Source of the DNA: Curvibacter sp. AEP1-3
GTDB lineage: Bacteria; Pseudomonadota; Gammaproteobacteria; Burkholderiales; Burkholderiaceae_C
Direction of reading: 5' to 3'
Assembly: GCF_002163715.1 (NCBI RefSeq)
Contig: NZ_CP015698.1
Span: 1,674,001 to 1,738,000 of the forward strand
DNA length: 64,000 nt
Shown here one piece after another: positions 2 to 31,135 of this stretch. The translations under genes and the position numbers were made by a program. The first letter of the stretch is position 1, and each line of letters begins with the position of its first letter. The notes under the pieces were generated by a model. It did no database searches. It saw nothing but the letters and a program-made list of their open reading frames with translations, and had not been told where the DNA came from.

Positions 2-841
2 GCGATGCGCGAGCTGGCCAAGGCCGGTGTGCTAGTGGGATTTTGCGGTGGCGGCGGCACACCGCTGTTTGCCGCCAACGAGATGGATGTGGAAGTTGCC
101 TGGCTCTCCCCCCAAAGCGAATACCGCCCTACGGAATACCTGCAAGCGTGGGTGCGCTTCTGGTTTGACGATGAACTGCGGCTGGCGGCGGCCAAGCAAC
201 TGCAACTGCAGCGGCTGAACTGGCTGCCCGCCCAATGGACCACCCGGGCACTGCGCGAAGCGGGGTTTAACGTGCCCACCGATGCAGTGCAGGCGCTGGT
301 GGCCCAGTTCAAGCCCATGGTGGTCAACGCGCCCGACATCACCGCCCTGCTCACCGACGAAGCCCGTCTCACCAAGGCGCTGTACAAGCTGGCCGTGCAG
401 GCCTGCGGCTACGGCGACTTCACCCGCGCCAAGCGCGGCAGTGGCACCGATGCCGCCAACCGTTTTCTGGACCACGGCAACTACCTGGCCTATGGCCTGG
501 GGGCCACCGCCACCTGGGTGCTGGGCTTGCCACACGGGCTGGCTGTGCTGCATGGCAAAACGCGGCGTGGCGGGCTGGTGTTTGATGCGGCCGATCTGGT
601 CAAAGACGCCATCATCGTGCCGCAGGCTTTTGTGTCGGCCATGCGCGGCGATGACGAGCAGCAGTTTCGCCGCCAGTGCATCGAAGCCTTGACCCGCAGC
701 GAGGCGCTGGACTTCATCATCGACCAGCTCAAGGCCATTGCCATCGACATCGCCCGGCTGGCACAGCAGACAGAAACGGCACCGGACGCGAAACCTGGCA
801 TCGCACCTGCCACACCCCCCAGCAGCGAGGGCTCGGCATGA
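2..841 (+). CDS. cas1: Cas1 integrase of type I-F (5' end outside window)
   Basis: This is the C-terminal ~280 residues of the CRISPR adaptation integrase. Cas1 with the Cas2 domain of the next gene forms the complex that cuts and joins new spacers at the leader end of the array. Counting from the first methionine (base 5), Glu119 lies in a LLTDEARLTKALYK stretch, His183 in LPHGLAVLHGK, and Asp194/Asp197 in GLVFDAADLVKD. These match the family's Glu-His-Asp metal site in sequence and spacing. NRFLDHGNYLAYG is also typical of I-F Cas1. I-F Cas1 is usually about 330 residues, so roughly 50 are missing to the left; the frame is open from base 2. The stop overlaps the cas2-3 start (ATGA), indicating translational coupling. 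Confidence 0.95.
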   Translation, partial: AMRELAKAGVLVGFCGGGGTPLFAANEMDVEVAWLSPQSEYRPTEYLQAWVRFWFDDELRLAAAKQLQLQRLNWLPAQWTTRALREAGFNVPTDAVQALVAQFKPMVVNAPDITALLTDEARLTKALYKLAVQACGYGDFTRAKRGSGTDAANRFLDHGNYLAYGLGATATWVLGLPHGLAVLHGKTRRGGLVFDAADLVKDAIIVPQAFVSAMRGDDEQQFRRQCIEALTRSEALDFIIDQLKAIAIDIARLAQQTETAPDAKPGIAPATPPSSEGSA

Positions 842-3800
842 ATGTGCTGTTCGTCTCGCAATGTTCCAAGCGCGCACTGACGGAAACCCGCCGCATCCTC
901 GACCAGTTTGCCGAACGGCGCGGCGAGCGCACCTGGCAAACCCCCATCACCCAGGCTGGACTGGACACCGTGCGCAAGCTGCTGCGCCAAACGGCGCGCA
1001 AGAACACCGCCGTAGCCTGCCACTGGATTCGCGGGCGCGACCACAGCGAGCTGCTGTGGGTGGTGGGCGATGCGAGCCAGTTCAACGACCAAGGCGCGGT
1101 GCCCACCAACACCACGGCCAGCAACGTGCTGCGCGCAGGTGATGAAAACGTGTGGCACCACCTTCCGCTGATGACCGCCCTGGCTGCACTCTCAGCCCTG
1201 CTGCACGACCTGGGCAAGGCCACGCAGGCGTTCCAAGACAAGCTCAAAAACCCCGGCGTGCGCGAGCGCAACCACTACCGGCATGAATGGGTGTCGGTAC
1301 GGCTGTTCCAGGCCTTTGTGGGGCAGGACGATGACGCGGGCTGGCTCCAACGGCTGGCGGCGTATGCCGATGCAGACAACGACACGCAGGCGTTGGAGGC
1401 AGCGTGGCTAGACCATGCAGGTGGGCGGCTGCTGCGCGATGGGCTGGATACGATTGAAAGTCGTGATGGAGTGAGCAGCCCGCATAACCCGTTTCGCTGT
1501 CTGCCTCCATTAGCTCAGGCGGTTGCATGGCTTGTGTTCACACACCATAGGTTGCCCTGCACGCCCGTTCGGAGGCGACAACACAACGACGAGACCGCAG
1601 AGGACGGCAAAGTCTTCCAGCCCTTCGGTTGGAAACCAGTCTCTGTAGAAGCGCGTGAATTGGACTTTCTTTTAGAGCAGATAAACGCCGACTGGAATGA
1701 ACCCCGTGATAGCGTGTCCGCCGCGACACTCGCCGCGCATTGGCACTTCCCGCACGGCCTGCCCGTCACCCAGCCCACCTGGCGCAAACAAGCCGCCCGC
1801 TATGCACGCAAGCTGCTGGAGCTATCGCAAACCGCCCGGCAAGGCACGGTGCTGCACGACCCGTTTGCCATGCACGTCGCCCGCCTGTGCCTCATGCTGG
1901 CAGACCACCATTACTCCAGCCTCACCGACGCAGCCGCACGCGCACCGCACCTCAGCCCCGGCTACCCGCTCTACGCCAACACCCGCAGCAACCACTATCA
2001 AAACAATAGCTGCTCGCGCTTGGTGGATAAGCGCCAGAGCCCATTTTTTAATCAAACCCTGGACGAACACCTGCTGGGCGTGCAAGCCCACGCCACGCTG
2101 GTGGCACGGTCGCTGCCCAACCTCACGCGGAGCCTGCCCGCGCTCAAAAACCACAAGCCCCTCAAAAAGCGCAGCGCCGACCCGCGCTTTGCCTGGCAAG
2201 ACAAGGCGGCAGACCTGGCCGCCAGCGTGCGCGCCCGCGCCGCGCACGCTGGCGCATTCATCGTCAACATGGCCTCCACCGGCTGCGGCAAAACATTGGG
2301 CAACGCCCGGGTGATGAACGCGCTGGCCGACCCGGCCACCGGCCTGCGCTGCGCCTTTGCCATGGGGCTGCGCACGCTCACGCTGCAAACCGGGCGCGTG
2401 TTCCAGAACGACCTGCAACTGAGTGACGAGCAACTGGCCCTCCAGGTCGGGGGCGCGGCCAGCCGGGCACTGTTTGAATACTGGGAGCAGCAGGCCGAAG
2501 CCACCGGCTCCGCATCCAGCCAGGCGCTGCTGGACGAAGCTGGCACCGTGCTCTTTGAGGGCAACGACCAGCACCCGCTGCTGCAGCGCCTGACGGGCGA
2601 CGCGAAGGCCCGTGCGCTGATTGCCGCGCCCCTGCTGGTCTGCACCGTAGACCACCTCACCCCCGCCACCGAGAGCCTGCGCGGTGGCCGCCAGATTGCG
2701 CCCATGCTGCGCCTGCTTACCAGCGACCTGGTGCTGGACGAGCCCGACGACTTTGACATGGCCGACCTGCCCGCCCTGACCCGGCTGGTGCACTGGGCAG
2801 GCCTGCTGGGCAGCCGCGTGCTGCTGTCATCGGCCACGCTGCCGCCTGCGCTGGTGGAAGGGCTGTTTATGGCCTACCGTGCCGGGCGCGCCGTGTACCA
2901 GCGCCACCGCAGCGAGCGGCCCAGCGAGCCTGTGAACATCTGCTGCCTGTGGATCGACGAATTCCACCAGACCCCGCAAGACTGCGCAGATGGAGCCGCC
3001 TTCCGTGAAGCGCACACCCAGTACGTGCACAAGCGCGTCGCCAAGCTCAAGCAGGCCGAGGTGCGGCGGCTGGCGCAGATTGCGCCCCTGCCTGACACCT
3101 GGCACAGCATGCAAGAAGCCGAGCGCCGCAAAGACTTTGCCCGCCTGGTGCTGGAGCAAGCGTGGGAGCTGCACCAACGGCCCCACAACCACAGCACGGA
3201 TACCCCCACCCACGCCGCCAGCGGCAAGCGCGTGAGCCTGGGCCTCATCCGCATGGCCAACATTGCCCCGCTGTACGACGTGGCCCTGGCCATGTACGCG
3301 CCAGACGCACTGCCGCACGCACTGCAAGGCCAGGTGCGCATTCACCTGTGCGTGTACCACTCGCAGTTCCCGCTATTGCTGCGCTCGGCCATCGAGCAGC
3401 AGCTGGACACTCTGCTCAACCGACGCGGTGCCAAGGACGGGCACGACCCCGCGCTGCACCGCCCTGCCCTGCGCGCCTTGATTGACGCCCACCCCGAGCC
3501 CCACCACCTGTTCATCGTGCTGGGCAGCCCTGTGACCGAAGTGGGCCGCGACCACGACTACGACTGGGCCGTGGTCGAGCCCTCGTCCATGCGCTCGCTC
3601 ATCCAACTCGCCGGGCGTGTGCGGCGGCACCGGCCAGGGGCGGTGGGTGGGGTGAACATGGTGGTGCTGGACAGCAACTTGCGGCACTACGAAGACAAGA
3701 GCAAAGCAGCGTTTTGCAAACCAGGCTTTGAAATGAACCCGCAGCCACCAGGGTCGAGCGACGCTGCACAGAACTTCTACCTGTACAGCCATAGCCTGCG

Positions 3801-4395
3801 CCAACTGATGACGCGCTTGGTCAAAGACGCTGAACCATGGGCGGTGGATGCTCAACCGCGCATTGAAGTAGCCACCGCGCAATACCACCCCCGCCGCCAT
3901 TGGGCCGACCTGGAACACGAGCGTATGCGAGACGCCATGTTGCAACGCTCTGCGACCAGCAAATACACCACCGCCCCAGAGCGCGCGGCCTTCCTGCATT
4001 GGGCACATCCCGGTCATCTGTGGCTCACCGGCCTGCTACCGCAGTTCCAGCGCTTTCGCTACGACGCCCAACCCCGCGACGACGTGGCCCTGCTGCCGGA
4101 CGAGAACGAAGAAACGCTGTTGCTGCACCGCGTGCAAGACGGAGAACGGCGCTACGAAAAGCTCTACGTGCCCATCCACCAAAGCCTGTGCCACCCGGTT
4201 CCCGCCGCGCAACTGGCATCGCCCAGCGTATCGCCCTGGCCGCAGGTGGATTTGATGGAGGAACTGGCTGCACTGGCACAGGCGCGGGGCTTGTCGCTGG
4301 AGCAATGTGCTGAACGCTATGCCACCGCCAGCCTGCCTGAATCGCAGACGGGCTGGCGGTGGGATGAGCGTTTGGGCTTTAGCAAGAAAGCCTGA
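838..4395 (+). CDS. cas3: Cas2-Cas3 fusion (nuclease-helicase) of type I-F
   Basis: Fusion of the adaptation subunit Cas2 with the interference effector Cas3, a hallmark of I-F. Cas3 is recruited by target-bound Csy complex and unwinds and degrades DNA; the Cas2 part bridges Cas1 dimers. The start at 838 gives MNVLFVSQCSKRALTETRRI, the Cas2-like N-terminus (about residues 1-95), and overlaps the cas1 stop by ATGA; an upstream in-frame ATG would lie inside cas1. The HD nuclease motif is at His123-Asp124 (LLHDLGK). Helicase motif I is TGCGKT near residue 482, motif II DEPDD near 634, followed by LLSSATLPP and the arginine-rich LAGRVRRHRPG. The length of 1185 residues is slightly above the usual ~1100. 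The stop codon lies inside a degenerate CRISPR repeat on the other strand. Confidence 0.95.
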   Translation: MNVLFVSQCSKRALTETRRILDQFAERRGERTWQTPITQAGLDTVRKLLRQTARKNTAVACHWIRGRDHSELLWVVGDASQFNDQGAVPTNTTASNVLRAGDENVWHHLPLMTALAALSALLHDLGKATQAFQDKLKNPGVRERNHYRHEWVSVRLFQAFVGQDDDAGWLQRLAAYADADNDTQALEAAWLDHAGGRLLRDGLDTIESRDGVSSPHNPFRCLPPLAQAVAWLVFTHHRLPCTPVRRRQHNDETAEDGKVFQPFGWKPVSVEARELDFLLEQINADWNEPRDSVSAATLAAHWHFPHGLPVTQPTWRKQAARYARKLLELSQTARQGTVLHDPFAMHVARLCLMLADHHYSSLTDAAARAPHLSPGYPLYANTRSNHYQNNSCSRLVDKRQSPFFNQTLDEHLLGVQAHATLVARSLPNLTRSLPALKNHKPLKKRSADPRFAWQDKAADLAASVRARAAHAGAFIVNMASTGCGKTLGNARVMNALADPATGLRCAFAMGLRTLTLQTGRVFQNDLQLSDEQLALQVGGAASRALFEYWEQQAEATGSASSQALLDEAGTVLFEGNDQHPLLQRLTGDAKARALIAAPLLVCTVDHLTPATESLRGGRQIAPMLRLLTSDLVLDEPDDFDMADLPALTRLVHWAGLLGSRVLLSSATLPPALVEGLFMAYRAGRAVYQRHRSERPSEPVNICCLWIDEFHQTPQDCADGAAFREAHTQYVHKRVAKLKQAEVRRLAQIAPLPDTWHSMQEAERRKDFARLVLEQAWELHQRPHNHSTDTPTHAASGKRVSLGLIRMANIAPLYDVALAMYAPDALPHALQGQVRIHLCVYHSQFPLLLRSAIEQQLDTLLNRRGAKDGHDPALHRPALRALIDAHPEPHHLFIVLGSPVTEVGRDHDYDWAVVEPSSMRSLIQLAGRVRRHRPGAVGGVNMVVLDSNLRHYEDKSKAAFCKPGFEMNPQPPGSSDAAQNFYLYSHSLRQLMTRLVKDAEPWAVDAQPRIEVATAQYHPRRHWADLEHERMRDAMLQRSATSKYTTAPERAAFLHWAHPGHLWLTGLLPQFQRFRYDAQPRDDVALLPDENEETLLLHRVQDGERRYEKLYVPIHQSLCHPVPAAQLASPSVSPWPQVDLMEELAALAQARGLSLEQCAERYATASLPESQTGWRWDERLGFSKKA

Positions 4396-4477
4396 GCTGC
4401 CTATGCGGCAGTAAAACGCTTTGTAACCTCTGAAGGTCTTAAGCTGAATTTTCTGAGCTGCCTTTGCGGCAGTGAAA
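4389..4477 (-). ncRNA. Mini-CRISPR: two degenerate repeats and one 33-nt spacer; candidate CreR-type regulatory crRNA
   Basis: Read on the minus strand, 4450-4477 is a repeat copy differing from the old-type array repeat (ending CAGAAA) at two positions. 4389-4416 is a second, more degenerate copy that overlaps the cas2-3 stop. Both keep the Csy4 hairpin (CTGCC stem, GGCAG). They are separated by 33 nt (4417-4449), a normal spacer length here. The guide would start ATTCAGCTTAAGA. Positions 1-5 and 7-13 match the minus strand at 4494-4482; only position 6 differs, a base that type I complexes flip out. A CC follows on the 5' side, the known I-F PAM. The match ends after 13 nt, as expected for binding without cleavage. 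Regulatory crRNA-like RNAs (CreR) that repress cas promoters through partial matches are known; assignment here is inference. Confidence 0.7.
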
Positions 4478-4481
4478 TTAT

Positions 4482-4496
4482 TCTTAAGTTGAATGG
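4482..4496 (-). promoter_or_regulatory. Seed-plus-PAM target of the mini-CRISPR guide
   Basis: On the minus strand this reads CC followed by ATTCAACTTAAGA. The mini-CRISPR guide starts ATTCAGCTTAAGA, so 12 of 13 positions agree with a mismatch at position 6. The PAM (bases 4495-4496) directly abuts the candidate -35 hexamer of the csy promoter, so a Csy complex parked here would block polymerase. A simple short direct repeat is the alternative reading. Confidence 0.6.
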
Positions 4497-4524
4497 TTGA
4501 AAATTTTCCCACACCACCTAAAAT
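4497..4524 (+). promoter_or_regulatory. Candidate sigma-70 promoter of the csy operon
   Basis: TTGAAA (4497-4502), 16 nt, then TAAAAT (4519-4524). It lies about 200 bp upstream of csy1 and is the best promoter-like pair I found in the 329-bp gap between cas2-3 and csy1. No mapping data are available; the call rests on hexamer similarity. Confidence 0.5.
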
Positions 4525-4526
4525 AA

Positions 4527-4560
4527 GGCCATGACAGCTGTTCGAGCAACTGTCATGGCC
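4527..4560. repeat. Perfect 11-bp inverted repeat in the csy1 leader
   Basis: GGCCATGACAG (4527-4537) is repeated inverted as CTGTCATGGCC (4550-4560) around a 12-nt loop that can pair further. It sits just downstream of the candidate csy promoter, with no T-run after it, so it is more likely an operator or leader hairpin than a terminator. On the minus strand it lies between hexamers (TTGCTC and TATTTT) that could drive the mini-CRISPR RNA. Confidence 0.5.
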
Positions 4561-4724
4561 GAGTCAACAACGTGCTTCGCGGCACCAAAAAAAAAGAGGT
4601 CACAGTGAATAGCTTTCACGCCCTCAGGAGGGCTTTGTCGGCTACCTAGCCGTTTTCACATCCCCGGTTGGTTCTGTGCTGACTGGGGAATTTTAACTTC
4701 CAACCCTTTTGGAAAGGTTTTCCC

Positions 4725-6089
4725 ATGTCCGAAGCCCCTGAAACAGGAGGCAAGGCAGGCTACAGAGCGGCCATCAGCGCCTTCTTGCAAGAGCGACTGC
4801 AAGCCAAGCTCGACAAGCTCAAGCCTGACGATCCCCAACGCGAAGAGGTGATTGCCTCATTCGCCCATAATGTGTGGGTGGCCAGCGCTGCCAAGCGCGT
4901 GGAACAAATCCAGGCCGTCACCCACTCCCTCAAACCCATCCACCCCGACGCCCGGGGCACCAATCTGTATGTGGAGCCCCGCACCCTGCCCCCGCTGGCC
5001 GAGGTGGGCAGCCACGCGCTGGGCGAGCGCTTTGTGGGCGATGTGGTGGGCAACGCTGCGGCGCTGGATGTGTACAAGCTGCTCAAGCTGGAGGTGAACG
5101 GGCGCAGCCTGCTCACCGCCCTGCTGGCGCACGATGCGGACGCGCTGGCAGCACTGCATGCCGACCCGGCCCAGGCCGAGAAGCTGCGCGATGCGTTGGT
5201 GACATTGACCCAGCCCCGCGCCGAAGGCCCCAGCAGCCACACCCTGGCCAAGCAGCTCTACTGGCTCACAGGCACCAACGCCTGTGACGACGCCCACTAC
5301 ACCCTGCTGGCCCCGCTGTACGCCACATCGCTGGCCCATGCCGTGCACGCCCAGGTGCAGGAAGACCGCTTTGGCGAGGTCAACAAGGCCGCCCGCCAGG
5401 CGCGGCGTGAGGGCAAGATGCATGACGGCGTGTTCCATGACTACCCCGGCCTGGCCGTGCAGAACATGGGTGGCACCAAGCCGCAAAACATCAGCCAGCT
5501 CAACAGCGAGCGGCGGGGGGTGAACTACCTGCTGTCGTCGCTGCCGCCGCAGTGGAAGGCCAGCGCGGTGCGGTTGCCGGTGCATGCGGCTTCGGTGTTC
5601 GAGCGGCTGTTCATCGCCCGGCCCGAAGTGCGCCGCGCCGTGCGGACGCTGCGGGTGTTTTTGGAGTCCAACCCCGACACCAATCTGGCCACCCGCGATC
5701 GGCGCGAGGCATTGCTCGACGCTCTGGTGGACGAGCTGGTGTCGCTGGCTGCCGAGTTGCAACAGACCCTTCCGCCCGGCTGGAGCCGGGATGACGAGCG
5801 CTTTGCGGATCTGCACCGCAGCGAGCAACTGTGGCTGGACCCGTTGCGTGCCGAACAACCTGATGAGGCCGACTTTGCCCGCGAGTGGTTGCAGATGGAC
5901 TGGCCTGCCGCCGTGGGTCAGCGCTTTGCCAACTGGCTCAACGCGCAGCTGCGCGGCAAGCTGCCTGTAGGCGATGCGGAAGCGCGTGCTTGGCAGAAGG
6001 AGTTGCTGACCGACGAGGACGGTTTTCAGCAGCAACTGCGCACACTGCGCCAGCGGCTGGACCGCACGGCGACGGGGGCAACGCCATGA
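4725..6089 (+). CDS. csy1: Csy1 (Cas8f), large subunit of the I-F Csy complex
   Basis: 454-residue I-F large subunit. In the Csy complex, Csy1 with Csy2 caps the 5' handle of the crRNA and recognises the PAM. It is identified by position (directly after cas2-3, before csy2-csy3-csy4), usual length, and I-F signatures such as the LVTLTQPRAEGPSSHTLAKQ and NMGGTKPQNISQLNS regions. The ATG at 4725 is preceded by a GGAAAGG ribosome-binding site. Its stop overlaps csy2 by ATGA. The 329-bp gap upstream holds a mini-CRISPR, a promoter-like pair and a palindrome, so the csy genes may be transcribed separately from cas1-cas2-3. Confidence 0.93.
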   Translation: MSEAPETGGKAGYRAAISAFLQERLQAKLDKLKPDDPQREEVIASFAHNVWVASAAKRVEQIQAVTHSLKPIHPDARGTNLYVEPRTLPPLAEVGSHALGERFVGDVVGNAAALDVYKLLKLEVNGRSLLTALLAHDADALAALHADPAQAEKLRDALVTLTQPRAEGPSSHTLAKQLYWLTGTNACDDAHYTLLAPLYATSLAHAVHAQVQEDRFGEVNKAARQARREGKMHDGVFHDYPGLAVQNMGGTKPQNISQLNSERRGVNYLLSSLPPQWKASAVRLPVHAASVFERLFIARPEVRRAVRTLRVFLESNPDTNLATRDRREALLDALVDELVSLAAELQQTLPPGWSRDDERFADLHRSEQLWLDPLRAEQPDEADFAREWLQMDWPAAVGQRFANWLNAQLRGKLPVGDAEARAWQKELLTDEDGFQQQLRTLRQRLDRTATGATP

Positions 6090-7177
6090 AGCAACCCCAA
6101 GCCATCCTCGTCCTGCCCCACCTGCGCATTCAAAACGCCAACGCCATTGGCAGCCCGCTCACCCATGGCTTCCCGTCCATCACCGCCTTTACGGGCGTGA
6201 TGTGGGCGCTGGAGCGCAAGCTGGCCCAGGCCGGTGTGCCGCTGCAACTGCATGGCGTGGGCGTGGTGTGCCACCACCATCAAGAGCAGGTCACGCAGGG
6301 CTATGTGCGCAACTTCAACCTGACGCGCAACCCGGTGGACAAAGACGGCAGTACCGCCGCCATCGTGGAAGAAGGCCGGATGCACCTGCAGATCTCGCTG
6401 GTGCTGGCCGTTTCAGAAAAGCGCACGCCCGGCACCCCTGCAGCGCTGGTGCAAAGCAACCAGGCGCAGTTGGACGAATGGGCTGCGCAAGCGGGCCACA
6501 TCCTGGCAGGCATGCGTGTGGCGGGCGGCAGCGTGCTGCCATCGCGCCCGGTGCCGGGCAAGCGCGTGCGGCCCTGGATGGCCGTCGTGCCCGAAGACCC
6601 ACAGGCAGCAGAGAAGCAGTTCCGCCAATGGCGGCGGCAGTGGCTGCCGGGTTTTGCCCTGGTGGGGCGCGATGACCTGCTGGCCGAGCGCCTGCAAGAC
6701 CTGCGCACCACCCAGCCCGATGCCACGCTGCTGGACGCCTGGTTGCACGCGGCTCGCTTTAACTACGCGCCTGTGGTGCCTGACAGCGGTGCCCCTGCAC
6801 CAGACGGACAGGTGAAGTGGGCAGACCCACAGCGGCCCAAGGGCAGCGGCTGGGTGGTACCCATTCCGGTGGGTTATGTCGCGCTCACATCCGCCCACGC
6901 CCCGGGCACCGTGCGCAATGCACGCGATGCCACGGTGCCCATGCGGTTTGTGGAATCGGTCTATGCGCTGGGCGAGTGGATTAGCCCGCACCGCCTGACG
7001 CACCTAGGCCAGTTGCTGTGGCATGCCGAAGCCGACGAAGACGACAAAGCGCAGGGCCTGTACCGCTGCCGCAATGGCTACCAACCCGCCAAGGCAGAGG
7101 AGGCTGGCGCAGACGGCAACCCCACCACCGACACGCTGGACGAATGGGACGACGACGAGGCTTATGCCTACACCTGA
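6086..7177 (+). CDS. csy2: Csy2 (Cas5f) of the I-F Csy complex
   Basis: 363-residue Cas5-type subunit that holds the crRNA 5' handle together with Csy1. The start at 6086 gives MKQPQAILVLPHLRIQNANA followed by IGSPLTHGFPSITAFTGVMW, the very characteristic Csy2 N-terminus. Longer in-frame starts would run into csy1, and the ATGA overlap with the csy1 stop supports this one. The C-terminus is acidic (DEWDDDEAYAYT). A 62-bp spacer precedes csy3. Confidence 0.93.
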   Translation: MKQPQAILVLPHLRIQNANAIGSPLTHGFPSITAFTGVMWALERKLAQAGVPLQLHGVGVVCHHHQEQVTQGYVRNFNLTRNPVDKDGSTAAIVEEGRMHLQISLVLAVSEKRTPGTPAALVQSNQAQLDEWAAQAGHILAGMRVAGGSVLPSRPVPGKRVRPWMAVVPEDPQAAEKQFRQWRRQWLPGFALVGRDDLLAERLQDLRTTQPDATLLDAWLHAARFNYAPVVPDSGAPAPDGQVKWADPQRPKGSGWVVPIPVGYVALTSAHAPGTVRNARDATVPMRFVESVYALGEWISPHRLTHLGQLLWHAEADEDDKAQGLYRCRNGYQPAKAEEAGADGNPTTDTLDEWDDDEAYAYT

Positions 7178-7239: not shown

Positions 7240-8289
7240 ATGACCGACAAACTCACCACCGCCTCCGTCCTGGCCTTTGAACGCAAGCTGGACCCCTCTG
7301 ACGCCGTGTTCCATGCAGGCCACTGGGACGACCGCGCACAGTCGCACGCTTGGCAGCCCATCAAGCTGCGGATAAAACCCATACGAGGCACCATCAGCAA
7401 TCGGCTCAAAGCGAAAGAACAAGATCCAGCCAAGCTGGACGCGCAAATTGAAAAGCCCAACCTGCAAACCGTGGACGTGGCCGCCTTGCCCGCAGAAGTC
7501 GACACACTCAAGGTGCAATTCACGCTGCGCGTGCTGGGCGGCGCGGGCACCCCATCAGCCTGCAACAGCGCGGCCTACCAGGCCAAACTGCGGGCCACCG
7601 TGCAGGGCTATGTGCAGCAGCACGGCTTTGGCGAACTGGCCCGGCGCTACGCGGCCAACCTGGCCAATGGCCGCTTCTTGTGGCGTAACCGCGCCGGTGC
7701 CGAACAGGTGGAAGTAACCGTGGAGCAGATGCAAGGCGGGCAGGCCGCACATACATGGTCTTTTGATGCTCTGGCGCTAAATACACGGGCGGTAGACGCT
7801 ATCAATACAGAAGCAAAAGGCTTGGACGAGCTGGGCCAAGCCATTGCCGCCGGGTTGGCCGGGTCACAGCATGTGATGCTGCGTATCACGGCCTTTGTGC
7901 GCCAAGGTGCGGGGCAAGAGGTGTTCCCATCCCAAGAGCTGATCTTGGATCAAAAGGCGCAGAAAACAGACGACGGGGTACTGGTTAAAAAGAGCAAGAC
8001 GCTGTATCACGTGGACGGCGTGGCCGCCATCCACTCGCAAAAAATCGGCAACGCCATTCGCACCATCGACACCTGGTATGAAGGCGCTGAAGAACTCGGC
8101 CCCATCGCGGTAGAGCCCTACGGCTCCGTCACCACCCAGGGCAAGGCCTACCGCCAGCCAAAGCAAAAGCTGGACTTCTACACCCTGCTGGACCACTGGC
8201 TGCTGAAAGACCAAGTGCCCCCCGCAGAGCAAAAGCACTTTGTGATGGCCGTGCTGATCCGTGGCGGCGTGTTTGGCGACGCCAGCTAA
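7240..8289 (+). CDS. csy3: Csy3 (Cas7f), crRNA backbone subunit
   Basis: 349-residue Cas7-type subunit. Six copies polymerise along the crRNA spacer, flipping out every sixth base, which matters for the position-6 mismatch in the mini-CRISPR guide. The N-terminus ([20 protein letters not shown]), the central [16 protein letters not shown] and the C-terminal [14 protein letters not shown] and [12 protein letters not shown] segments match the I-F Csy3 family, as does the length. The ATG at 7240 is the first in frame, with a weak GAAAG upstream. It is followed 13 bp later by csy4. Confidence 0.93.
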
Positions 8290-8302: not shown

Positions 8303-8878
8303 ATGACCACGCACTATCTCCACATCACCCTGCTACCCGACCCGGAGTTCAGCCCCGCGCACCTGCTGGGCGCGCTGGTGGCCAAGCTGCACCGGGCGCT
8401 GGTGCAAGGGCAGACCACCGACATCGGGGTGAGCTACCCGCAGCACATCGGCCAGCCGACCACAAAGCGCACCCTGGGCGCGGTGCTACGCCTGCACGGC
8501 ACCCCCGAGGCGCTGCAACGCCTGATGGGGCAAGACTGGCTCAAAGGCATGCGCGACCACACGCAGGTGGGTGAACGGCTGCCAGTGCCCGCCCACGCAC
8601 AGCACCGCACCGTGCGCCGCCGCCAGTTCAAGACCAACGCCGACCGCCTGCGCCGCCGCCGCATGCAGCGCAAGGGCGAAACCGCCGAACAGGCCGCAGC
8701 CGCTATCCCCGACGCTGTAGAGCGCCGCCCCGACCTGCCGTTTGTGTCACTGCGCAGCAGCAGCACGGGCCAGCCGTTTTGCCTGTACGTGGAGCACGGC
8801 CCACTGCAGGCCCAACCTGTGGCCGGGGCCTTCAACGCCTACGGCCTGGGGCACGAGGCGACCGTACCCTGGTTTTGA
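8303..8878 (+). CDS. csy4: Csy4 (Cas6f), crRNA-processing endoribonuclease
   Basis: 191-residue ribonuclease that cuts each repeat after its hairpin and stays bound to the crRNA 3' end. The start at 8303 gives MTTHYLHITLLPDPEFSPAH, which aligns with the Pseudomonas aeruginosa protein. Catalytic His30 sits in AKLHRAL (His29 in P. aeruginosa). The arginine-rich helix NADRLRRRRMQRKG enters the RNA groove, LRSSSTGQ carries the catalytic serine region, and the chain ends VPWF like the reference. An upstream in-frame start would overlap csy3. The leader follows directly. Confidence 0.95.
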   Translation: MTTHYLHITLLPDPEFSPAHLLGALVAKLHRALVQGQTTDIGVSYPQHIGQPTTKRTLGAVLRLHGTPEALQRLMGQDWLKGMRDHTQVGERLPVPAHAQHRTVRRRQFKTNADRLRRRRMQRKGETAEQAAAAIPDAVERRPDLPFVSLRSSSTGQPFCLYVEHGPLQAQPVAGAFNAYGLGHEATVPWF

Positions 8879-9017: not shown

Positions 9018-12000
9018 GTTCACTGCCGCATAGGCAGCTCAGAAGTCCCCAAAGACGACCCGTTCTGGGAGGGGCACGTTCACTGCCGCATAGGCAGCTC
9101 AGAAGTCGCAAATCTATCGAGCGAGGACGATGGCCATGTTCACTGCCGCATAGGCAGCTCAGAAGAGTGATACGGCCAGGCTGCCGGCTGCGATCGAGTT
9201 CACTGCCGCATAGGCAGCTCAGAAGATGGGGAGGTGCCAGCATGACCGACATCACCTGTTCACTGCCGCATAGGCAGCTCAGAAGTATGACATTGCCGCA
9301 AACTCACGCATCCGGTTGTTCACTGCCGCATAGGCAGCTCAGAAGACACAGAGCACTACGTTGGTGGGCTCTGTGCTGTTCACTGCCGCATAGGCAGCTC
9401 AGAAGTCAGGGTCAGTGGGAAATGCCTCGCACTCCAGGTTCACTGCCGCATAGGCAGCTCAGAAGACGAACAAGCTGGCGGGCTATCGGGTAATGGCGTT
9501 CACTGCCGCATAGGCAGCTCAGAAGTCGGTAACGGCAATGCGCGTGGGCACCGGTTCGTTCACTGCCGCATAGGCAGCTCAGAAGGCGCGATGGTGGGGC
9601 AAAACATCGGTACACGCGTTCACTGCCGCATAGGCAGCTCAGAAGTCGACCTCGGCAGGTTGCCGCAGGAAATACAGGTTCACTGCCGCATAGGCAGCTC
9701 AGAAGAAGCGAAAAACGGCGGCGTTTGGCCCAATGCCGTTCACTGCCGCATAGGCAGCTCAGAAGTGCACTACGACGCCGCCATCAACCGCGTAGGCGTT
9801 CACTGCCGCATAGGCAGCTCAGAAGAGACGCGAACGCGCCAAGCGTCGCCTTAACACGTTCACTGCCGCATAGGCAGCTCAGAAGAAGATGCCTTCACAG
9901 AGACCGCCTTTCCAAGCGTTCACTGCCGCATAGGCAGCTCAGAAGTTGTCTCTTGCGCGGATGAAGGCGTTGAACTGGTTCACTGCCGCATAGGCAGCTC
10001 AGAAGGCCTGGCAGCCCGTACCGCTCTGCACCACGCCGTTCACTGCCGCATAGGCAGCTCAGAAGACATCGAAGACGCAGTAGAAGAAGCCGAAGGGGTT
10101 CACTGCCGCATAGGCAGCTCAGAAGAGCAAGAAATCAACTGGCGCGGGCGCAAAGTGGTTCACTGCCGCATAGGCAGCTCAGAAGCGCTTGTAGTAGCCG
10201 GTCACTTCGTCCGAGGCGTTCACTGCCGCATAGGCAGCTCAGAAGAACCTCCGATCCAGCACGTCCTGCCGCTTGGTGTTCACTGCCGCATAGGCAGCTC
10301 AGAAGAACGCGCTTGGCTTTCATGACGTCCAGCTCTTCGTTCACTGCCGCATAGGCAGCTCAGAAGACAGCCACGTCGAGCAGACGGCAGCATCCACGGT
10401 TCACTGCCGCATAGGCAGCTCAGAAGATTTTGTCGATGGCGTTGGGGGCGGCAAATAAGTTCACTGCCGCATAGGCAGCTCAGAAGATAACAACGTCTCC
10501 ACTGGTGCGCCCACCGTCGTTCACTGCCGCATAGGCAGCTCAGAAGATACTGGATGAAATCTCCAAGTTCGACCGCAGGTTCACTGCCGCATAGGCAGCT
10601 CAGAAGAAATCTTGTCCTTCACTTCGCCCTTGATCTCGGTTCACTGCCGCATAGGCAGCTCAGAAGGCTACATCCACAACCCCCAGCAGTCAGCAAGAGT
10701 TCACTGCCGCATAGGCAGCTCAGAAGAGTGAGTCCCAGTTCACTCGTAGCGGCATCGGGTTCACTGCCGCATAGGCAGCTCAGAAGGTGGTGGATTGCTG
10801 AGCCGCAGCGGATGCTGCGTTCACTGCCGCATAGGCAGCTCAGAAGCCGTTGTCATTGCTGTTTTGCAAGACGTATCGGTTCACTGCCGCATAGGCAGCT
10901 CAGAAGCGATTTCTTCCCGCACGATTTCGACAAACTCTCGTTCACTGCCGCATAGGCAGCTCAGAAGACACAGCGGCCCGCGAAGGTAGACAAGGATTTG
11001 TTCACTGCCGCATAGGCAGCTCAGAAGTTTGCAATGGCCGTCGTGAATCCAGCGCGGAAGTTCACTGCCGCATAGGCAGCTCAGAAGTCGCTCGATAGAT
11101 ATACAAAGATCAAGCCGCTGTTCACTGCCGCATAGGCAGCTCAGAAGTCTCCAAACACCCGAACGAGCAACATGGCGCAGTTCACTTCCGCATAGGCAGC
11201 TCAGAAGTTGTCAAACACCGTACCCGTGCCCAAAGACGTGTTCACTGCCGCATAGGCAGCTCAGAAGCAGCATCACCCCATTTGAAGATGAGTCGAAACG
11301 TTCACTGCCGCATAGGCAGCTCAGAAGTACGCCAAATGTCAGCGCCTCATGGCCTACACGTTCACTGCCGCATAGGCAGCTCAGAAGCAGCGCTGCCAGG
11401 CAGGCGCGTTGCTCTGGACGTTCACTGCCGCATAGGCAGCTCAGAAGTTGGCATGAAATATGGGGCGTTTGGACATGAAGTTCACTGCCGCATAGGCAGC
11501 TCAGAAGTACAAATTCGTCAGTGAGGGTGGCGTAGTGCAGTTCACTGCCGCATAGGCAGCTCAGAAGGCTTGTACGTGGTCGAAATGAATGCAGGCGGCG
11601 TTCACTGCCGCATAGGCAGCTCAGAAGTGCTGCCCACTCTGATATGGCGCAGGTCATGCGTTCACTGCCGCATAGGCAGCTCAGAAGATAGAAGCAGCCG
11701 CTTGGACATCGTAGTTAGTGTTCACTGCCGCATAGGCAGCTCAGAAGCGTTCCCCTGTATCCAAAGGTGCGTCTAGCGCGTTCACTGCCGCATAGGCAGC
11801 TCAGAAGAGTCGCAACGATGTCGCACGCAGCGGCCACACGTTCACTGCCGCATAGGCAGCTCAGAAGAAAGTGTCAGCAGCAGCAACGTAATCATTGGCG
11901 TTCACTGCCGCATAGGCAGCTCAGAAGTTTGAAATATCGGCATTTGCATTGATGGCCTGGTTCACTGCCGCATAGGCAGCTCAGAAGATATCGCCCTGAA

Positions 12001-15000
12001 ACAGTATCGGACGCTCGGTGTTCACTGCCGCATAGGCAGCTCAGAAGCTTACGCAGGAACTTGCCGAAGGCTTGCTTGTGTTCACTGCCGCATAGGCAGC
12101 TCAGAAGTACACGCTCACCGGAATAGACCAGCATCTGCTGTTCACTGCCGCATAGGCAGCTCAGAAGAAGCGAAAAACGGCGGCGTTTGGCCCAATGCCG
12201 TTCACTGCCGCATAGGCAGCTCAGAAGATATCGGCCTGAAAAAGAATGGGCCGTTCAATGTTCACTGCCGCATAGGCAGCTCAGAAGCTGAACTCGTATT
12301 CATTGCGCACATAGAGTGCGTTCACTGCCGCATAGGCAGCTCAGAAGCCTGTGGCCTCGCACTCTATTGGGCAGCAATTGTTCACTGCCGCATAGGCAGC
12401 TCAGAAGTGGGCAAAAGCGGCGGTAATGGAGGTGAAGATGTTCACTGCCGCATAGGCAGCTCAGAAGTTGAGCTTTCCCTCAGACCACACACAGGCAGAG
12501 TTCACTGCCGCATAGGCAGCTCAGAAGACGGCCACAGACATGACAAAACGAGGGCCATGGTTCACTGCCGCATAGGCAGCTCAGAAGGTCCCCGTGTCCG
12601 GCGGGCTGGTGTTGATCGCGTTCACTGCCGCATAGGCAGCTCAGAAGCAGCAAGTGTTCTGTGCTCCAGTGATGCCGTCGTTCACTGCCGCATAGGCAGC
12701 TCAGAAGATGGATCGACTGGTGGGCGAAGCACGTCGGTTGTTCACTGCCGCATAGGCAGCTCAGAAGAGACCGCAGGGCAGGGCTCATCGATCTAGTGTG
12801 TTCACTGCCGCATAGGCAGCTCAGAAGTCTTTGTTTTGCGCTACATCCCACTGCCAGTAGTTCACTGCCGCATAGGCAGCTCAGAAGTCCTCATGGTCAC
12901 CAGCCTGCGCACCGACAAAGTTCACTGCCGCATAGGCAGCTCAGAAGTTCTAAGTCACTGTCCGCTCAATGCGGGTCGTGTTCACTGCCGCATAGGCAGC
13001 TCAGAAGACGCGTATGTAAGCAGTCGAATCGAGGCGGGGGTTCACTGCCGCATAGGCAGCTCAGAAGTGACAAATCACCGTTGAAATAAAAAGGACCAAG
13101 TTCACTGCCGCATAGGCAGCTCAGAAGTGTGAGCGACATGCCAGCTTCCTGCAGCTTTTGTTCACTGCCGCATAGGCAGCTCAGAAGTGCAACGCCGCTA
13201 CCCGCAAGAAGCCGGCGGCGTTCACTGCCGCATAGGCAGCTCAGAAGTGTTGCTGGGCTGCGCCATGGCAGAGGCCCTGGTTCACTGCCGCATAGGCAGC
13301 TCAGAAGGCTACACGCGGGAGCCTGCCATTTGACCTGGCGTTCACTGCCGCATAGGCAGCTCAGAAGTGAGCCTGTTTCGCAAAGACATCCCCGGTGAAG
13401 TTCACTGCCGCATAGGCAGCTCAGAAGACTTGCGGGTGTCGATCAAGCGCAGGGGCAGCGTTCACTGCCGCATAGGCAGCTCAGAAGAGCTCAAGTCTTG
13501 AACGGCATGCACTACTTCATGTTCACTGCCGCATAGGCAGCTCAGAAGTTGCTGGTGTCCTGGCAACGTCCATCGTCGGCGTTCACTGCCGCATAGGCAG
13601 CTCAGAAGCGCACATTCAAGCGCACCCTCGGTGAAAAAATTGTTCACTGCCGCATAGGCAGCTCAGAAGAAGCCTCCGTAGACGTTGCACAAAAAGTCGT
13701 CGTTCACTGCCGCATAGGCAGCTCAGAAGCTGGACTAAACCACCATGCCACGCTACATCCGGTTCACTGCCGCATAGGCAGCTCAGAAGACGCTCATCTA
13801 CAGCGTCAGCCACCGAACCACGTTCACTGCCGCATAGGCAGCTCAGAAGTGTTCCACGCCAACCATAACAACGTCTCCACCGTTCACTGCCGCATAGGCA
13901 GCTCAGAAGAATGCTCGGTATCCCTTTCGAGCGGGCATCACGTTCACTGCCGCATAGGCAGCTCAGAAGTGCCTTCCAAGCTTGACCTGGTCATGGCGCA
14001 GGTTCACTGCCGCATAGGCAGCTCAGAAGTTGAGCTCATGAGGCTTGGCACCGTATGGACCGTTCACTGCCGCATAGGCAGCTCAGAAGTCTTCGTACTA
14101 AATTCTTTGGTGTCGCCCATTGTTCACTGCCGCATAGGCAGCTCAGAAGGTACTTCTGGCTGTAAACACGTAGAGAGCCACGTTCACTGCCGCATAGGCA
14201 GCTCAGAAGAACTCCTGGAGGATTTTCGGCAACCGCCGGTATGTTCACTGCCGCATAGGCAGCTCAGAAGTGATACCCAGCGCGAACAGCGCCGCTTGCA
14301 TGTTCACTGCCGCATAGGCAGCTCAGAAGACCGGGTTGTTGTCGCAACCGAGGCTAAGCCACGTTCACTGCCGCATAGGCAGCTCAGAAGTTATCGATGC
14401 TGCTGATGTGGTGTGGCAGACCGTTCACTGCCGCATAGGCAGCTCAGAAGAGTTATAAGTCGCCGTACTGTCTGCTGCTTCAAGTTCACTGCCGCATAGG
14501 CAGCTCAGAAGACTGTCACCAGGCTGGGGGCGATGAGAAACAAGTTCACTGCCGCATAGGCAGCTCAGAAGACCTCAACGCGGGTGGGGTCAAGAATGAT
14601 CAGGTTCACTGCCGCATAGGCAGCTCAGAAGATTCCGGCACAGTTTTTACGATTAATCCAACAGTTCACTGCCGCATAGGCAGCTCAGAAGCGTCAACGG
14701 CGCTTTATGGTTGGGCCCCTAGCGTTCACTGCCGCATAGGCAGCTCAGAAGGTCCGCTAAAGGTGCCGCTGCGTGCTGACTTTGTTCACTGCCGCATAGG
14801 CAGCTCAGAAGATGTCCACCACCAAAAGCACCACCCAGCCAACGTTCACTGCCGCATAGGCAGCTCAGAAGCTTCGAGTCTGCTGTTGAGTGCTACAGCG
14901 CAAGTTCACTGCCGCATAGGCAGCTCAGAAGCACGCCGATGCTGGTGTCAGGTTGCCTGTGTTGTTCACTGCCGCATAGGCAGCTCAGAAGAACAAACGC

Positions 15001-18000
15001 CGCGACACCATTGAAGTCCTCATGTTCACTGCCGCATAGGCAGCTCAGAAGCTCACAAACCGCGTCGAGCAGCATGAAAAAGAGTTCACTGCCGCATAGG
15101 CAGCTCAGAAGAAGCGAGCTTGGCGCATAGTGACTTCTGTGGGGTTCACTGCCGCATAGGCAGCTCAGAAGATCAAGACCTTTTTGCAGTGAACCCGCCC
15201 ACCGTTCACTGCCGCATAGGCAGCTCAGAAGTTGCCCCGCTGCGATGTCGGCCAGGTAGCCGAGTTCACTGCCGCATAGGCAGCTCAGAAGTTCTTGATG
15301 TTGCCATCCAACACGAAGTCGATGTTCACTGCCGCATAGGCAGCTCAGAAGAGCAAGGCTCCGTCAGGTCGCGCCCGCAGGTAGTTCACTGCCGCATAGG
15401 CAGCTCAGAAGAAAAGTGACCCGTTAGATGCATCGCTGATAGGGTTCACTGCCGCATAGGCAGCTCAGAAGGAATTTGCAGCACTCGAGCAGCGGGTCAA
15501 CACGTTCACTGCCGCATAGGCAGCTCAGAAGAGCTCTTGACGATATACCGTGGCCGTAGCCACGTTCACTGCCGCATAGGCAGCTCAGAAGAGTCTTTCC
15601 AGAACTCCCGCAAGTGGAAAGCCGTTCACTGCCGCATAGGCAGCTCAGAAGATGGCAGTAACAATGCCCATTGCCAAGGGTAGGTTCACTGCCGCATAGG
15701 CAGCTCAGAAGTGGTTGTTGGCAATTCAGAAGGCCGATCAGGCGTTCACTGCCGCATAGGCAGCTCAGAAGAACACGGGGTTGGTCGGTATGGCCGCCAC
15801 CGCGTTCACTGCCGCATAGGCAGCTCAGAAGAGTGCAGCAGCAAGGCCCACGTAAAACGCGGCGTTCACTGCCGCATAGGCAGCTCAGAAGCACTTCTCG
15901 GGGTTGAGTTGCATCACTTTCATGTTCACTGCCGCATAGGCAGCTCAGAAGCACGCCGATGCTGGTGTCAGGTTGCCTGTGTTGTTCACTGCCGCATAGG
16001 CAGCTCAGAAGATCTCACGAGCCATGATCAACAAATCGGTTACGTTCACTGCCGCATAGGTAGCTCAGAAGCCAATGTTTCGTTCACGAAGAGCTGCATG
16101 GGGCGTTCACTGCCGCATAGGCAGCTCAGAAGACGCGCAACGAGATCGAGAGCCACTTCAGCTCGTTCACTGCCGCATAGGCAGCTCAGAAGTACCCGAT
16201 TTTTTCCCCGTCGCACCTGGACAAGTTCACTGCCGCATAGGCAGCTCAGAAGCTGTTTTGTCGCATCGCATTTGCGGCGGGGGAGTTCACTGCCGCATAG
16301 GCAGCTCAGAAGAGTGCGCCTGACACGTTGTTGTCAAAGGTCATGTTCACTGCCGCATAGGCAGCTCAGAAGAGTCCCGCGCCTGCATCTTTTCGTCCGG
16401 CAAGGTTCACTGCCGCATAGGCAGCTCAGAAGACAAAAGAATGCCGGAAATCAAAGCGCGTGTTGTTCACTGCCGCATAGGCAGCTCAGAAGCGCACTAT
16501 TTCACTTTCAATCTCAGCGGCTTCGTTCACTGCCGCATAGGCAGCTCAGAAGATTGCGCCCGACAAGTTGTTGTCAAACGTCATGTTCACTGCCGCATAG
16601 GCAGCTCTGAAGTCCTAGCCTAGGGGAATGCCTACACCCCTAGAGTTCACTGCCGCATAGGCAGCTCAGAAGTATTGCAGCGCAATCCCGTGGCAGCCGC
16701 CACAGTTCACTGCCGCATAGGCAGCTCAGAAGAGCCTCATTGCCATGGCCGGTGACACCGTCGAGTTCACTGCCGCATAGGCAGCTCAGAAGGATGTCAT
16801 AGTGACGGCAGTTGCGCTTGATGAGTTCACTGCCGCATAGGCAGCTCAGAAGGCTCCCCTCAGGCCAACCTGGTTGTGTTCGATGTTCACTGCCGCATAG
16901 GCAGCTCAGAAGTTCACGATCCTGGGCGAAGTGCGCGCCGCGGTGTTCACTGCCGCATAGGCAGCTCAGAAGTGGACATCGATCGAGTCCAGCCACATGG
17001 GGAAGTTCACTGCCGCATAGGCAGCTCAGAAGTTGAGGAGGCCGGCCGATCGCTCCACCAGATCGTTCACTGCCGCATAGGCAGCTCAGAAGATCAGGTC
17101 CATGCCACGGAAATTGCGGGCACCGTTCACTGCCGCATAGGCAGCTCAGAAGTATGCTTTGGCCGATGCCCGCCGCGCCCTTGAAGTTCACTGCCGCATA
17201 GGCAGCTCAGAAGAGAGAGGCCCAAACCTCGCAGCCACCCCACACGTTCACTGCCGAATAGGCAGCTCAGAAGAATGCCGCGAGTTGCGCCGCCATGGAT
17301 ACGGCGTTCACTGCCGCATAGGCAGCTCAGAAGTTGGTATGACTGCTCTCGCCGGCCAGTCTGAAGTTCACTGCCGCATAGGCAGCTCAGAAGATGTCAG
17401 GAAACAAGGGGTTGGTGCAGTCCACGTTCACTGCCGCATAGGCAGCTCAGAAGTAGCACTGTGATGGAAAGCTCATGGATATGACGTTCACTGCCGCATA
17501 GGCAGCTCAGAAGGTATCGGTTACAGGCTTTGCGGCCCAGGGATAGTTCACTGCCGCATAGGCAGCTCAGAAGTTGATGGATTCGTGGACAACCAGGGAA
17601 TCCTGGTTCACTGCCGCATAGGCAGCTCAGAAGTCAATGCGATGCATGCCTGAAAAAATCTAGTGGTTCACTGCCGCATAGGCAGCTCAGAAGTTAATCG
17701 GTTGTTTGTTCACACCGGCCGAAGCGTTCACTGCCGCATAGGCAGCTCAGAAGGTACAGATTCGTGCGCAGGTCGATACCATTTCGTTCACTGCCGCATA
17801 TGCAGCTCAGAAGATGTCTCCTGTGGGGTTTGGATTTGGGGTGTTGTTCACTGCCGCATAGGCAGCTCAGAAGTGTTACTCATACCGGGCGTTGCCCTGT
17901 TAATGGTTCACTGCCGCATAGGCAGCTCAGAAGCACCACTTCACCGCCCGCGATTACGGTTTCGCGTTCACTGCCGCATAGGCAGCTCAGAAGTCTCAAT

Positions 18001-22429: not shown

Positions 22430-22777
22430 TGTAGGGATCCGAAGTTGTTGTCGCAAAGCTCGCGCTATATCAACTACTTAGACAACAAACTTGGGCTTCC
22501 GTATTAAATGTCATTCAAACATATTGTCGAATACCTAATAACGTATCAAATTTCTTGTCACGCCGCTGGAATCAGTGCAATACGCGTACTAGTCACGCCC
22601 TGGTTTGAGGCATAGGTGAAATGAGATGCGTCTCACAGCAGCTTTCAAGTTTTGATCAGAGCTAAGTGCGGCAAAGACAAATTACGCTAGTTGGAGAGCC
22701 CACAGCGCAATTGATTATTTTTTCGGCGATCAACTGCTATTGGATGCAGGGCAAACAATGCGGAGCTACCCGAGCGA
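22430..22777. other. Junction of the broken array with the inserted island; no gene seen
   Basis: The sequence changes abruptly after base 22429 within a repeat. I see no open frame of convincing length, no inverted terminal repeat at the breakpoint, and no further repeat copies until 32348. It looks like intergenic or decayed sequence. Confidence 0.5.
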
Positions 22778-22995
22778 TCATCTATAGACTCGGCTAAGTT
22801 TCCCGCTTGGGGTGAGAATTCCGGCCGACTTGAGAACCCAAACGGCATCTTCACCCGTCAACGCTTTAGCAACCCGCAAGCGGGAACCACCACGCACCAA
22901 GGGCTGCCGCCGTTTAGCCAGTAATTCCTTCTTAACGGCAGATTCAGGGTTGAAGTGTGCAGCCAAGAGCGTGGTTTTTTTGTATCTGCAGCCAT
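22778..22995 (-). pseudogene. Small unrecognised gene, probably frameshifted in an A-run
   Basis: The main frame encodes about 62 residues ending AVWVLKSAGILTPSGKLSRV, which looks protein-like; its only in-frame start near the 5' end is TTG. A better ATG (22995) begins MAADTKK just upstream but in another frame. The two join if the run of seven A (minus strand, around 22974-22980) had eight. This suggests a one-base deletion or a sequencing slip in a ~72-residue protein. Function unknown. Confidence 0.35.
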
Positions 22996-23223
22996 ATTGA
23001 GAGTATGTCGTAAATCGAGTTTCTAAGCATCCTCACGCAATACAGCGGTCATGGTGCAGGCTGCGGACCTTAGGTCGGTGTCCACGGGCCGGCTGCGGCC
23101 CAATAGACCGCCAGCGCCGGTTTAATAGACATGGAAGCGGAGAGAAGTAGATACCGAGGTGCTAGTTACAACAGTCATTTTGCAAGTGACAGATAACTTG
23201 CTTCGGAGCAATCAGCCACATAA

Positions 23224-23472: not shown

Positions 23473-23729
23473 GACGAGGCTCTGGTCACATTAGTAAGCA
23501 TGTTGATCAGCTCTCTTGCTTAACTGGCAATAAGTTAGGCAGCTGCACCAAACTATGCGTGCAAACTGTCATTGCTGCAGTGCACTTCTAGCATGACCTC
23601 GTCCGTCAGCGCGGTAATTCGGGTAGTTGCCACATTGCTCCGTTGAACTCTATCGGCAATTCCTCAAACTTCACTACCACCAGGCTTGACAAACTTGACA
23701 AACTATAAAAGTTTGAATAAAGTGAATCC

Positions 23730-24602: not shown

Positions 24603-24633
24603 ATGAAGTGCCGTTCGTTCGGCAACAAGTCCC

Positions 24634-31097: not shown

Positions 31098-31135
31098 CTG
31101 AATACTCCTTTTGTGAAAACGACGTCCCCCCAGTT

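Follow-up and report, generated by a model that had tools for sequence, protein, structure and literature searches.

We analyzed a 64,000-nt window of the Curvibacter sp. AEP1-3 genome that contains a type I-F1 CRISPR-Cas locus, and focused on a mini-CRISPR unit of two degenerate repeats (R1 and R2) and one spacer between cas2-3 and csy1. We consider it likely, at roughly three chances in four, that positions 4389 to 4695 are a CreTA module of the I-F1 system, with a guide RNA (creA) as antitoxin against a toxin RNA (creT). Judged by its conservation in relatives, the unit is real biology, and it very probably encodes a guide RNA with which the CRISPR complex can silence a small neighboring toxic RNA. 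Such pairs are already known from a few microbes, and the window would be a new member, backed by evolutionary evidence that is unusually clear. The initial annotation of this DNA had read the unit as an autoregulatory CRISPR RNA (crRNA) of the CreR type for the Csy operon. A crRNA-like guide aimed at a promoter was indeed found, but this promoter first meets an RNA with a CreT-like mini open reading frame (mini-ORF) and not csy1 directly. Because a CreT-like RNA is first downstream, CreA (an RNA antitoxin) is the more fitting name for the guide; csy may nonetheless be autoregulated by way of read-through.

The guide unit and its target

The guide unit (4477 to 4389, minus strand) is placed in the cas2-3/csy1 gap, with creA and creT divergent and R2 overlapping the last 7 bases of cas2-3 (Table 1). 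R1 and R2 were the sole minus-strand sites in the window with no more than 8 mismatches to the array repeat. Against the Rfam family CRISPR-DR4, R1 scored 36.0 bits, passing the gathering score of 35, and R2 scored 25.2 bits, under it; the 5-bp stems are intact in both. The two inverted degenerate repeats with intact Csy4 stems and the 33-nt spacer lie in the sequence where first reported. Guide bases 1 to 5 and 7 to 13 are identical to the protospacer, base 6 is G in the guide and A in the protospacer, and base 14 onward is unmatched. The run from the protospacer-adjacent motif (PAM) therefore comprises 11 matched non-sixth bases (1 to 5, 7 to 11, and 13). This agrees with the earlier description of a 13-base match with base 6 off, next to a CC PAM and ending there. 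Equally accurate was the placement of the PAM against the TTGAAA of a TTGAAA-N16-TAAAAT promoter (TTGAAA at 4497 to 4502, 16 nt, TAAAAT at 4519 to 4524), which was the sole sigma70-like site in a scan of 4380 to 4740, with 0.2 expected.

A match of this kind is rarely reached by chance. In a shuffle test on the 32 candidate units of a first pass over 79 regions (200 shuffled guides per unit, each against its own region), 0 of 6400 guides had a run longer than 9. Guides placed on the regions of other loci gave runs of 13 to 15 in 11 of 2496 cases, which probably come from loci with near-identical guides. CCATTCANCTTAAGA, with at most one mismatch allowed, occurred once in the 4.38-Mb genome, at its own target with 0 mismatches; a reversed-pattern control likewise gave 1 occurrence. 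DNA searches returned no match in phage records and two in plasmid records, each confined to the repeat part.

To compare relatives, csy1-upstream regions were taken from 18 public loci and from whole-genome samples and oriented by tblastn. In total, 143 regions minus 9 identical ones left 134 distinct regions, the window included. This final set differs from the first pass in that all loci were tblastn-oriented, loci were added, and the stem rule was relaxed; it underlies all later counts. The sample consists of the loci that the searches returned, such as 30 out of 73 positive genomes for the order of G631, and csy1 starts were extrapolated from tblastn. Units were recognized by the 5' handle and stem only, so the last 8 bases of R1 and the stem of R2 were required by the rule.

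A minus-strand unit was found in 65 of the 134 regions and a plus-strand unit in 4; since a recognizable 5' handle was needed, 69 of the 134 count as silent rather than as shown to be empty. The best target of each unit was sought regardless of PAM or position, and it was on the same strand and CC-flanked in 60 of 66 minus-strand units. Among the six exceptions, L022 has TC as its PAM, and L024 and L047 have their best site elsewhere, yet CC-flanked runs of 10 and 14 are present. The remaining three (L113, the second unit of L122, and L148) have a CC-flanked best site on the opposite strand, which in L148 lies several hundred nucleotides from R1 and not beside it.

Removing 5 redundant guides from 60 left 55, which carry 32 distinct first-four-base seeds, each fitting its own target. 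Each of bases 1 to 5 was matched in 55 of 55 guides. Targets were selected with guide bases 1 to 17 minus 6 and 12, and the high match at these bases (761 of 825, or 92%) in part reflects that choice. Bases 6, 12, and 18, unused in the selection, were matched in 12, 18, and 13 of the 55 guides, summing to 43 of 165 (26%), the chance level. This neutrality is what the flipping out of every sixth base in type I complexes predicts (PMC7305327), and it identifies the guide-target pairs as Csy RNA-DNA pairs, not plain duplications. The check proposed initially, whether relatives hold the repeats yet drop the seed match, came out in favor of the initial reading: the match is held in nearly all units despite the variety of seeds, with the sixth bases unconstrained. 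We dropped the idea that selection favors a mismatch at base 6, where 12 of 55 guides match at about the chance rate.

The repeats themselves have decayed unevenly. R1 bases 1 to 5 agree with the consensus in only 7 to 21 of the 43 loci that have a 5-nt loop; over 54 loci, R2 bases 2 to 5 are kept in 36 to 44 and base 1 in 12, and most of the last 8 bases are lost. This pattern would roughly outline a mature crRNA, and the repeats of CreA are likewise degenerate outside the mature crRNA (PMC8501985, section 19).

Spacer lengths of the units were also not random. Across 54 non-redundant units we counted spacers of 15 nt (2 units), 18 to 21 nt (17), 24 to 27 nt (24), and 29 to 33 nt (11), clustering near 14, 20, 26, and 32 nt, with none of 16, 17, 22, 23, or 28 nt. 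The period of about 6 was supported by a Rayleigh test (P = 3e-7; 7e-6 for unique seed-length combinations; median of 4e-4 with one unit per seed family), and 0 of 20,000 draws from a smoothed null with a 3-nt spread matched it. The period is set only loosely, with resultants of 0.509 at 6, 0.495 at 6.5, 0.451 at 5.5, and 0.444 at 7. The length rule given for the I-F1 Cascade is L = 6N-4, i.e., 14, 20, 26, and 32 (PMC7296934, section 7). The same source reports that a spacer shortened by 6 lost plasmid interference in vivo, that R-loops of 26 bp or less fail to start cleavage, and that suppression in a binding test also dropped with shorter spacers, to nil at 14 nt. This last result is a caution for the shortest natural guides. 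In the window the spacer is full length (33 nt), so avoidance of cleavage would rest on the short match. We saw no tie between guide length and the extent of the match, which averaged 17.3 to 17.4 in the three longer classes and 14.5 in the two 15-nt units. Among the papers listed by our literature search, we recognized none that ties spacer length to regulatory guides and none on a UUA-type CreT.

A CreT-like RNA downstream of the targeted promoter

The distance from PAM to csy1 is bimodal, at 72 nt or less in 29 of 62 loci, 135 to 290 nt in 31, and longer in 2; the window, at 228 nt, belongs to the long class. In 28 of 55 loci the best-scoring -35 box begins 0 to 2 nt past the PAM, and in 9 of 55 it falls on guide bases 6 to 1; the placement always returned a best site and had no shuffle control. 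A -35 directly past the PAM, as in the window, is the commonest arrangement. Leaders of the long class are mostly structured RNA, with a 5' stem-loop, a Shine-Dalgarno (SD) sequence, a short ORF, and downstream hairpins. The window RNA from 4528 to 4700 has a fold z score of -4.2, and 0 of 200 shuffles were equally stable. An alignment of eight sequences contains 46 pairs, 11 of them changed on both sides and 9 of these in the 5' stem-loop; its covariation term is small (-1.44). The search flagged the hairpin at 4527 to 4560 as a minus-strand terminator, but L053 and L055 lack a T-run there, and the 5' stem-loop was preferred. Further, a hairpin starts 53 to 66 nt past the start codon in 18 of 20 long-leader loci tested. 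At 12 of the 18 loci this pre-csy1 hairpin is followed by ATTTTA or ATTCTA, a greater constancy than a plain U-tract would call for. An Rfam search placed the leaders of the window and of five relatives in no family.

Within these leaders, an SD followed by a mini-ORF with tandem AGA/AGG, TTA/CTA, or ATA codons was found in 23 of 62 (near-identical leaders retained), against 0.5 expected from dinucleotide shuffles. The position of the rare codons is strict. Starts located by the SD alone were found in 28 of 33 long leaders; 3 were redundant, and of the 25 left, 6 reach a stop at codon 2 and were not counted. In this set, rare codons occupied codon 8 in 14 of 17 and codon 9 in 16 of 16 mini-ORFs, with 0 or 1 at each other position. 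For pairing and codon content we used a set that omits L039 and L115, both of which had passed the mini-ORF search, and includes L053, L055, L056, L063, and L067, added by position, so that its codon-8/9 counts are partly chosen. About 25 relatives share the mini-ORF design of the window (AGA/AGG, TTA, or ATA). Their pairs are AGA-AGA, AGA-AGG, AGG-AGG (the window), AGG-AGA, TTA-TTA, AGA-TTA, and ATA-AGA; the five rarest sense codons of this genome (96,553 codons in 216 predicted genes) include AGA, TTA, AGG, and ATA. The start codon pairs with codon 5 (GUG-CAC, GUG-CGC, or AUG-CAU), and the start-codon hairpin forms 78 of 92 standard pairs in 23 distinct mini-ORFs, against 12 to 57 in six slid controls.

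The mini-ORF accompanies the guide unit, being present in 24 of the 65 regions that have a unit and in none of the 69 others (Fisher P = 2e-9). This table was entered by hand, with five matches (L018, L020, L080, L082, and L149) judged by eye to be chance; without that judgement, 27 regions that have a unit and 2 that lack one contain the mini-ORF, 29 in total. In one region (L178:1560-2000, from an Acinetobacter sp. ANC 7970 plasmid), the guide unit and a matching target are apparently kept, by eye, and both the codon-5 CAT and the rare pair are missing from the mini-ORF, which looks like decay of the toxin with retention of the guide.

From this anatomy, conservation, and covariation we infer the steps of transcription, processing, binding, repression, and toxicity as follows. 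creA would be transcribed from the minus strand, cut by Csy4 at both repeats, and loaded into the Csy complex. Csy-CreA would then bind the CC-flanked target through the 11 non-sixth bases at the edge of the -35 box and block the promoter, with pairing too short for Cas2-3 cleavage to start. The promoter would drive creT, whose structured RNA has a ribosome-binding site, holds its GUG start in a hairpin, and contains two rare AGG codons. Once released, creT would tie up initiating ribosomes along with the rare arginine tRNA and so halt growth. Loss or inhibition of Csy1-4 would free creT, making the cell dependent on its CRISPR effector. creT is also the csy1 leader, and so part of csy transcription may share control by the guide.

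If this is true, an apparent self-regulating crRNA becomes a probable addiction module, and csy deletion or anti-CRISPRs would be predicted to harm the host cell. The comparative set expands the I-F CreTA family by some two dozen candidates, though these may overlap the dozen homologs of PMC10097628. It also supplies natural guides whose sixth base is free of selection and whose lengths fall near 6-nt steps, matching L = 6N-4, and its mini-ORFs point to a UUA (leucine) class of CreT.

Known systems and alternative readings

I-F CreTA modules have been described between cas3 and csy1 in the Acinetobacter strains WCHA45, LoGeW2-3, and ANC3789, with WCHA45 tested experimentally (PMC10097628, Wang 2023). 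The window resembles them in that gap location, in the divergent creA, two degenerate repeats, and CC PAM, and in the partial match with base 6 off, the SD-led mini-ORF downstream of the target, and the pairing of the start codon with codon 5. The LoGeW2-3 plasmid has in the same place a 33-bp mini-ORF (ATG TTT AGC ACA CAT TTA GTT AGA AGG GTC TAG), and the first 20 bases of its guide-target pair are mismatched only at 6, 12, and 14. Both mini-ORFs have AGC as codon 3 and a rare pair at codons 8 and 9 (AGA AGG in LoGeW2-3), and we take them as one family. The window differs in its GUG start, its AGG AGG pair, the 13 guide bases of its match, and its 33-nt spacer, given as 20 nt for WCHA45. Unlike Acinetobacter CreTA, it comes from a GC-rich host, for which the nearest named relatives by csy1 belong to the Comamonadaceae. 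Nowhere in the main text of PMC10097628 do the term "rare codon" or the words leucine and UUA appear.

The haloarchaeal CreTA of Haloarcula hispanica and Halobacterium hubeiense has a CreT that sequesters tRNA (PMC8501985). There, as in the window, tandem rare codons in a mini-ORF are followed by a stem-loop, and a 5' handle from psiR1 and a 3' handle from psiR2 are kept. In contrast, those modules are archaeal, use AGA or AUA codons, and have no obvious sequence likeness to the window, no tool having been used for this comparison; UUA appears once only in PMC8501985, concerning another mutation. CreR, in turn, is a mini-CRISPR guide that partly matches a cas promoter, generally without a coupled toxin gene (PMC12737573, PMC13131331, PMC12948488), and has been reported to sense competing array crRNA (PMC12737573, PMC12948488). 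The window likewise has a mini-CRISPR guide with a partial match, here at a promoter that lies 5' of csy1 but with a toxin-like RNA, judged by sequence, between promoter and cas gene. Shmakov and colleagues reportedly described in 2023 regulatory mini-arrays that partly match cas8 promoters, among them an experimentally tested I-F1 case.

Several observations weigh against a CreTA module here. The window mini-ORF has 14 codons (45 bp), against 10 codons (33 bp) in the published homologs; the 33-bp form is present in L015, L021, L033, and L036. This length places the window in CreTA generally, outside the 33-bp Acinetobacter subgroup; in WCHA45 the mini-ORF stop codon is dispensable for toxicity (PMC10097628). 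In the same source, synonymous changes at codons 2, 3, and 5, which make up the start hairpin with its loop, abolished the toxicity of Acinetobacter CreT, and the authors suspect ribosomal RNA as its target, so toxicity may reside elsewhere than in the rare codons. That the rare pair holds so strict a position across genera points to a role for it as well, as in haloarchaeal CreT. Moreover, with 11 of 15 bases matched within guide positions 1 to 17, the window falls in the lowest group (3 of 60), and the scan found no sigma70-like promoter for the minus-strand guide unit. Only four T follow the hairpin at 4661 to 4689, and the end of creT may lie elsewhere. In a local fold the SD is paired with CCUC at 4622 to 4625; in the centroid of a longer fold the SD is unpaired.

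Some of the same features would suit autorepression of the CreR type only, in which the guide holds the Csy level and the leader is plain or regulatory and non-toxic. The 29 loci of 62 with the PAM within 72 nt of csy1 share the guide-target design and have no room for creT, and for them the CreR reading is the better one. In the window, the targeted promoter is the only promoter-like site between 4380 and 4740, and csy1 thus needs transcription through creT or from cas2-3. However, CreR alone would leave the SD, the start-codon hairpin, the rare pair at codons 8 and 9, and the likeness to the published CreT family unexplained, and we regard it as unlikely here. The rare codons, followed by a terminator-like hairpin directly ahead of csy1, could also suggest a leader-peptide attenuator, in which stalling at the rare codons would set read-through at 4661 to 4689 into csy1 and sense a rare tRNA, with the guide as a second layer. 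Antiterminator pairing gave no signal (the duplex energy between the segment ahead of the hairpin and its 5' arm did not beat shuffles, with a mean z of +0.14 in the 18 of 20 loci tried), the rare pair varies among Arg, Leu, and Ile, and the mini-ORF goes with the guide unit (24 of 65 versus 0 of 69 after hand judgement, 27 versus 2 before), so an attenuator seems quite improbable.

The degeneracy of both repeats and the shortness of the match are what a decayed array fragment or a duplication with an incidental match would look like. Such an origin is hard to credit when the unit is conserved on one strand (minus in 65 regions, plus in 4), 60 of 66 units have a CC PAM, sixth bases are neutral, and the seeds differ from one another yet suit their respective targets. 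Returning to the CreTA reading, we tentatively extend it, as a view that may well prove wrong, to a single family shared by beta- and gammaproteobacterial I-F systems. Its members would have a start hairpin and an Arg, Leu, or Ile pair chosen for rarity at codons 8 and 9, with guides in Csy3 quanta (about 14, 20, 26, and 32 nt), mostly shortened, non-cleaving repressor complexes, and one R-loop controlling both toxin and csy. The papers and listings consulted, among which Shmakov 2023 and Liu 2023 (on CreR) were not read, gave no precedent for the codon-8/9 pair and UUA class, the sixth-base neutrality of natural guides, the steps of about 6 nt, or co-located CreR-like and CreTA-like loci.

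Locus features and neighboring genes

Table 1. Features of the I-F1 locus, in window positions
Feature	Coordinates	Strand	Basis
cas2-3 (Cas3f)	838..4395	+	NCBIfam TIGR02562, 1191 bits
R2 (psiR2), degenerate repeat; would supply 3' handle of guide	4389..4416	-	Rfam; cross-locus base conservation
Spacer, 33 nt (putative CreA guide)	4417..4449	-	Read in sequence; guide-target comparison across loci
R1 (psiR1), degenerate repeat; would supply 8-nt 5' handle CTCAGAAA	4450..4477	-	Rfam RF01317, 36 bits
Target of guide bases 1-13, mismatch at base 6	4482..4494	-	Shuffle, genome, and cross-locus tests
CC PAM	4495..4496	-	Read in sequence; cross-locus comparison
Sigma70-like promoter TTGAAA-N16-TAAAAT of putative creT, perhaps csy1 too	4497..4524	+	Promoter scan
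5' stem-loop of putative creT RNA	4527..4560	+	Folding; covariation in eight relatives
SD core GAGG, 5 nt ahead of GTG	4596..4599	+	Mini-ORF searches
Putative creT mini-ORF, GTG AAT AGC TTT CAC GCC CTC AGG AGG GCT TTG TCG GCT ACC TAG	4605..4649	+	
Start-codon hairpin GUGAA-UAGCU-UUCAC	4605..4619	+	Fold; pairing counts across mini-ORFs
Tandem rare codons AGG AGG, codons 8-9	4626..4631	+	Codon usage; position counts
Stem-loop at mini-ORF end	4639..4652	+	Fold
12-bp hairpin and ATTTTA tail, terminator-like end of putative creT	4661..4695	+	Folding and terminator search
csy1 (cas8f)	4725..6089	+	TIGR02564, 378 bits
csy2	6086..7177	+	NCBIfam; TIGR02565, TIGR02566, and TIGR02563 given jointly for csy2, csy3, and csy4
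csy3	7240..8289	+	NCBIfam, as for csy2
csy4	8303..8878	+	NCBIfam, as for csy2
Main CRISPR array, 223 repeats	9018..22376	+	Repeat search

Some relatives (L015, L018, L021, and L022) carry a HigA-type antitoxin ORF behind R2 on the minus strand, in the stretch from cas2-3 to the mini-array. The L018 copy matched TIGR02607, and the other three are alike by eye. L018 and L022 also have a small ORF beside HigA that by eye resembles HigB, the L018 copy being without an NCBIfam match, and L020 and L025 are similar in sequence to the HigA-bearing loci. In the window, a second array of 6 repeats lies at 32348 to 32677, with degenerate repeats at 32710 and 32770. The roughly 10 kb between the two arrays (22376 to 32348) contains, by eye, a TIR-like ORF (26224 to 27426) and a transposase-like ORF (31136 to 31999).

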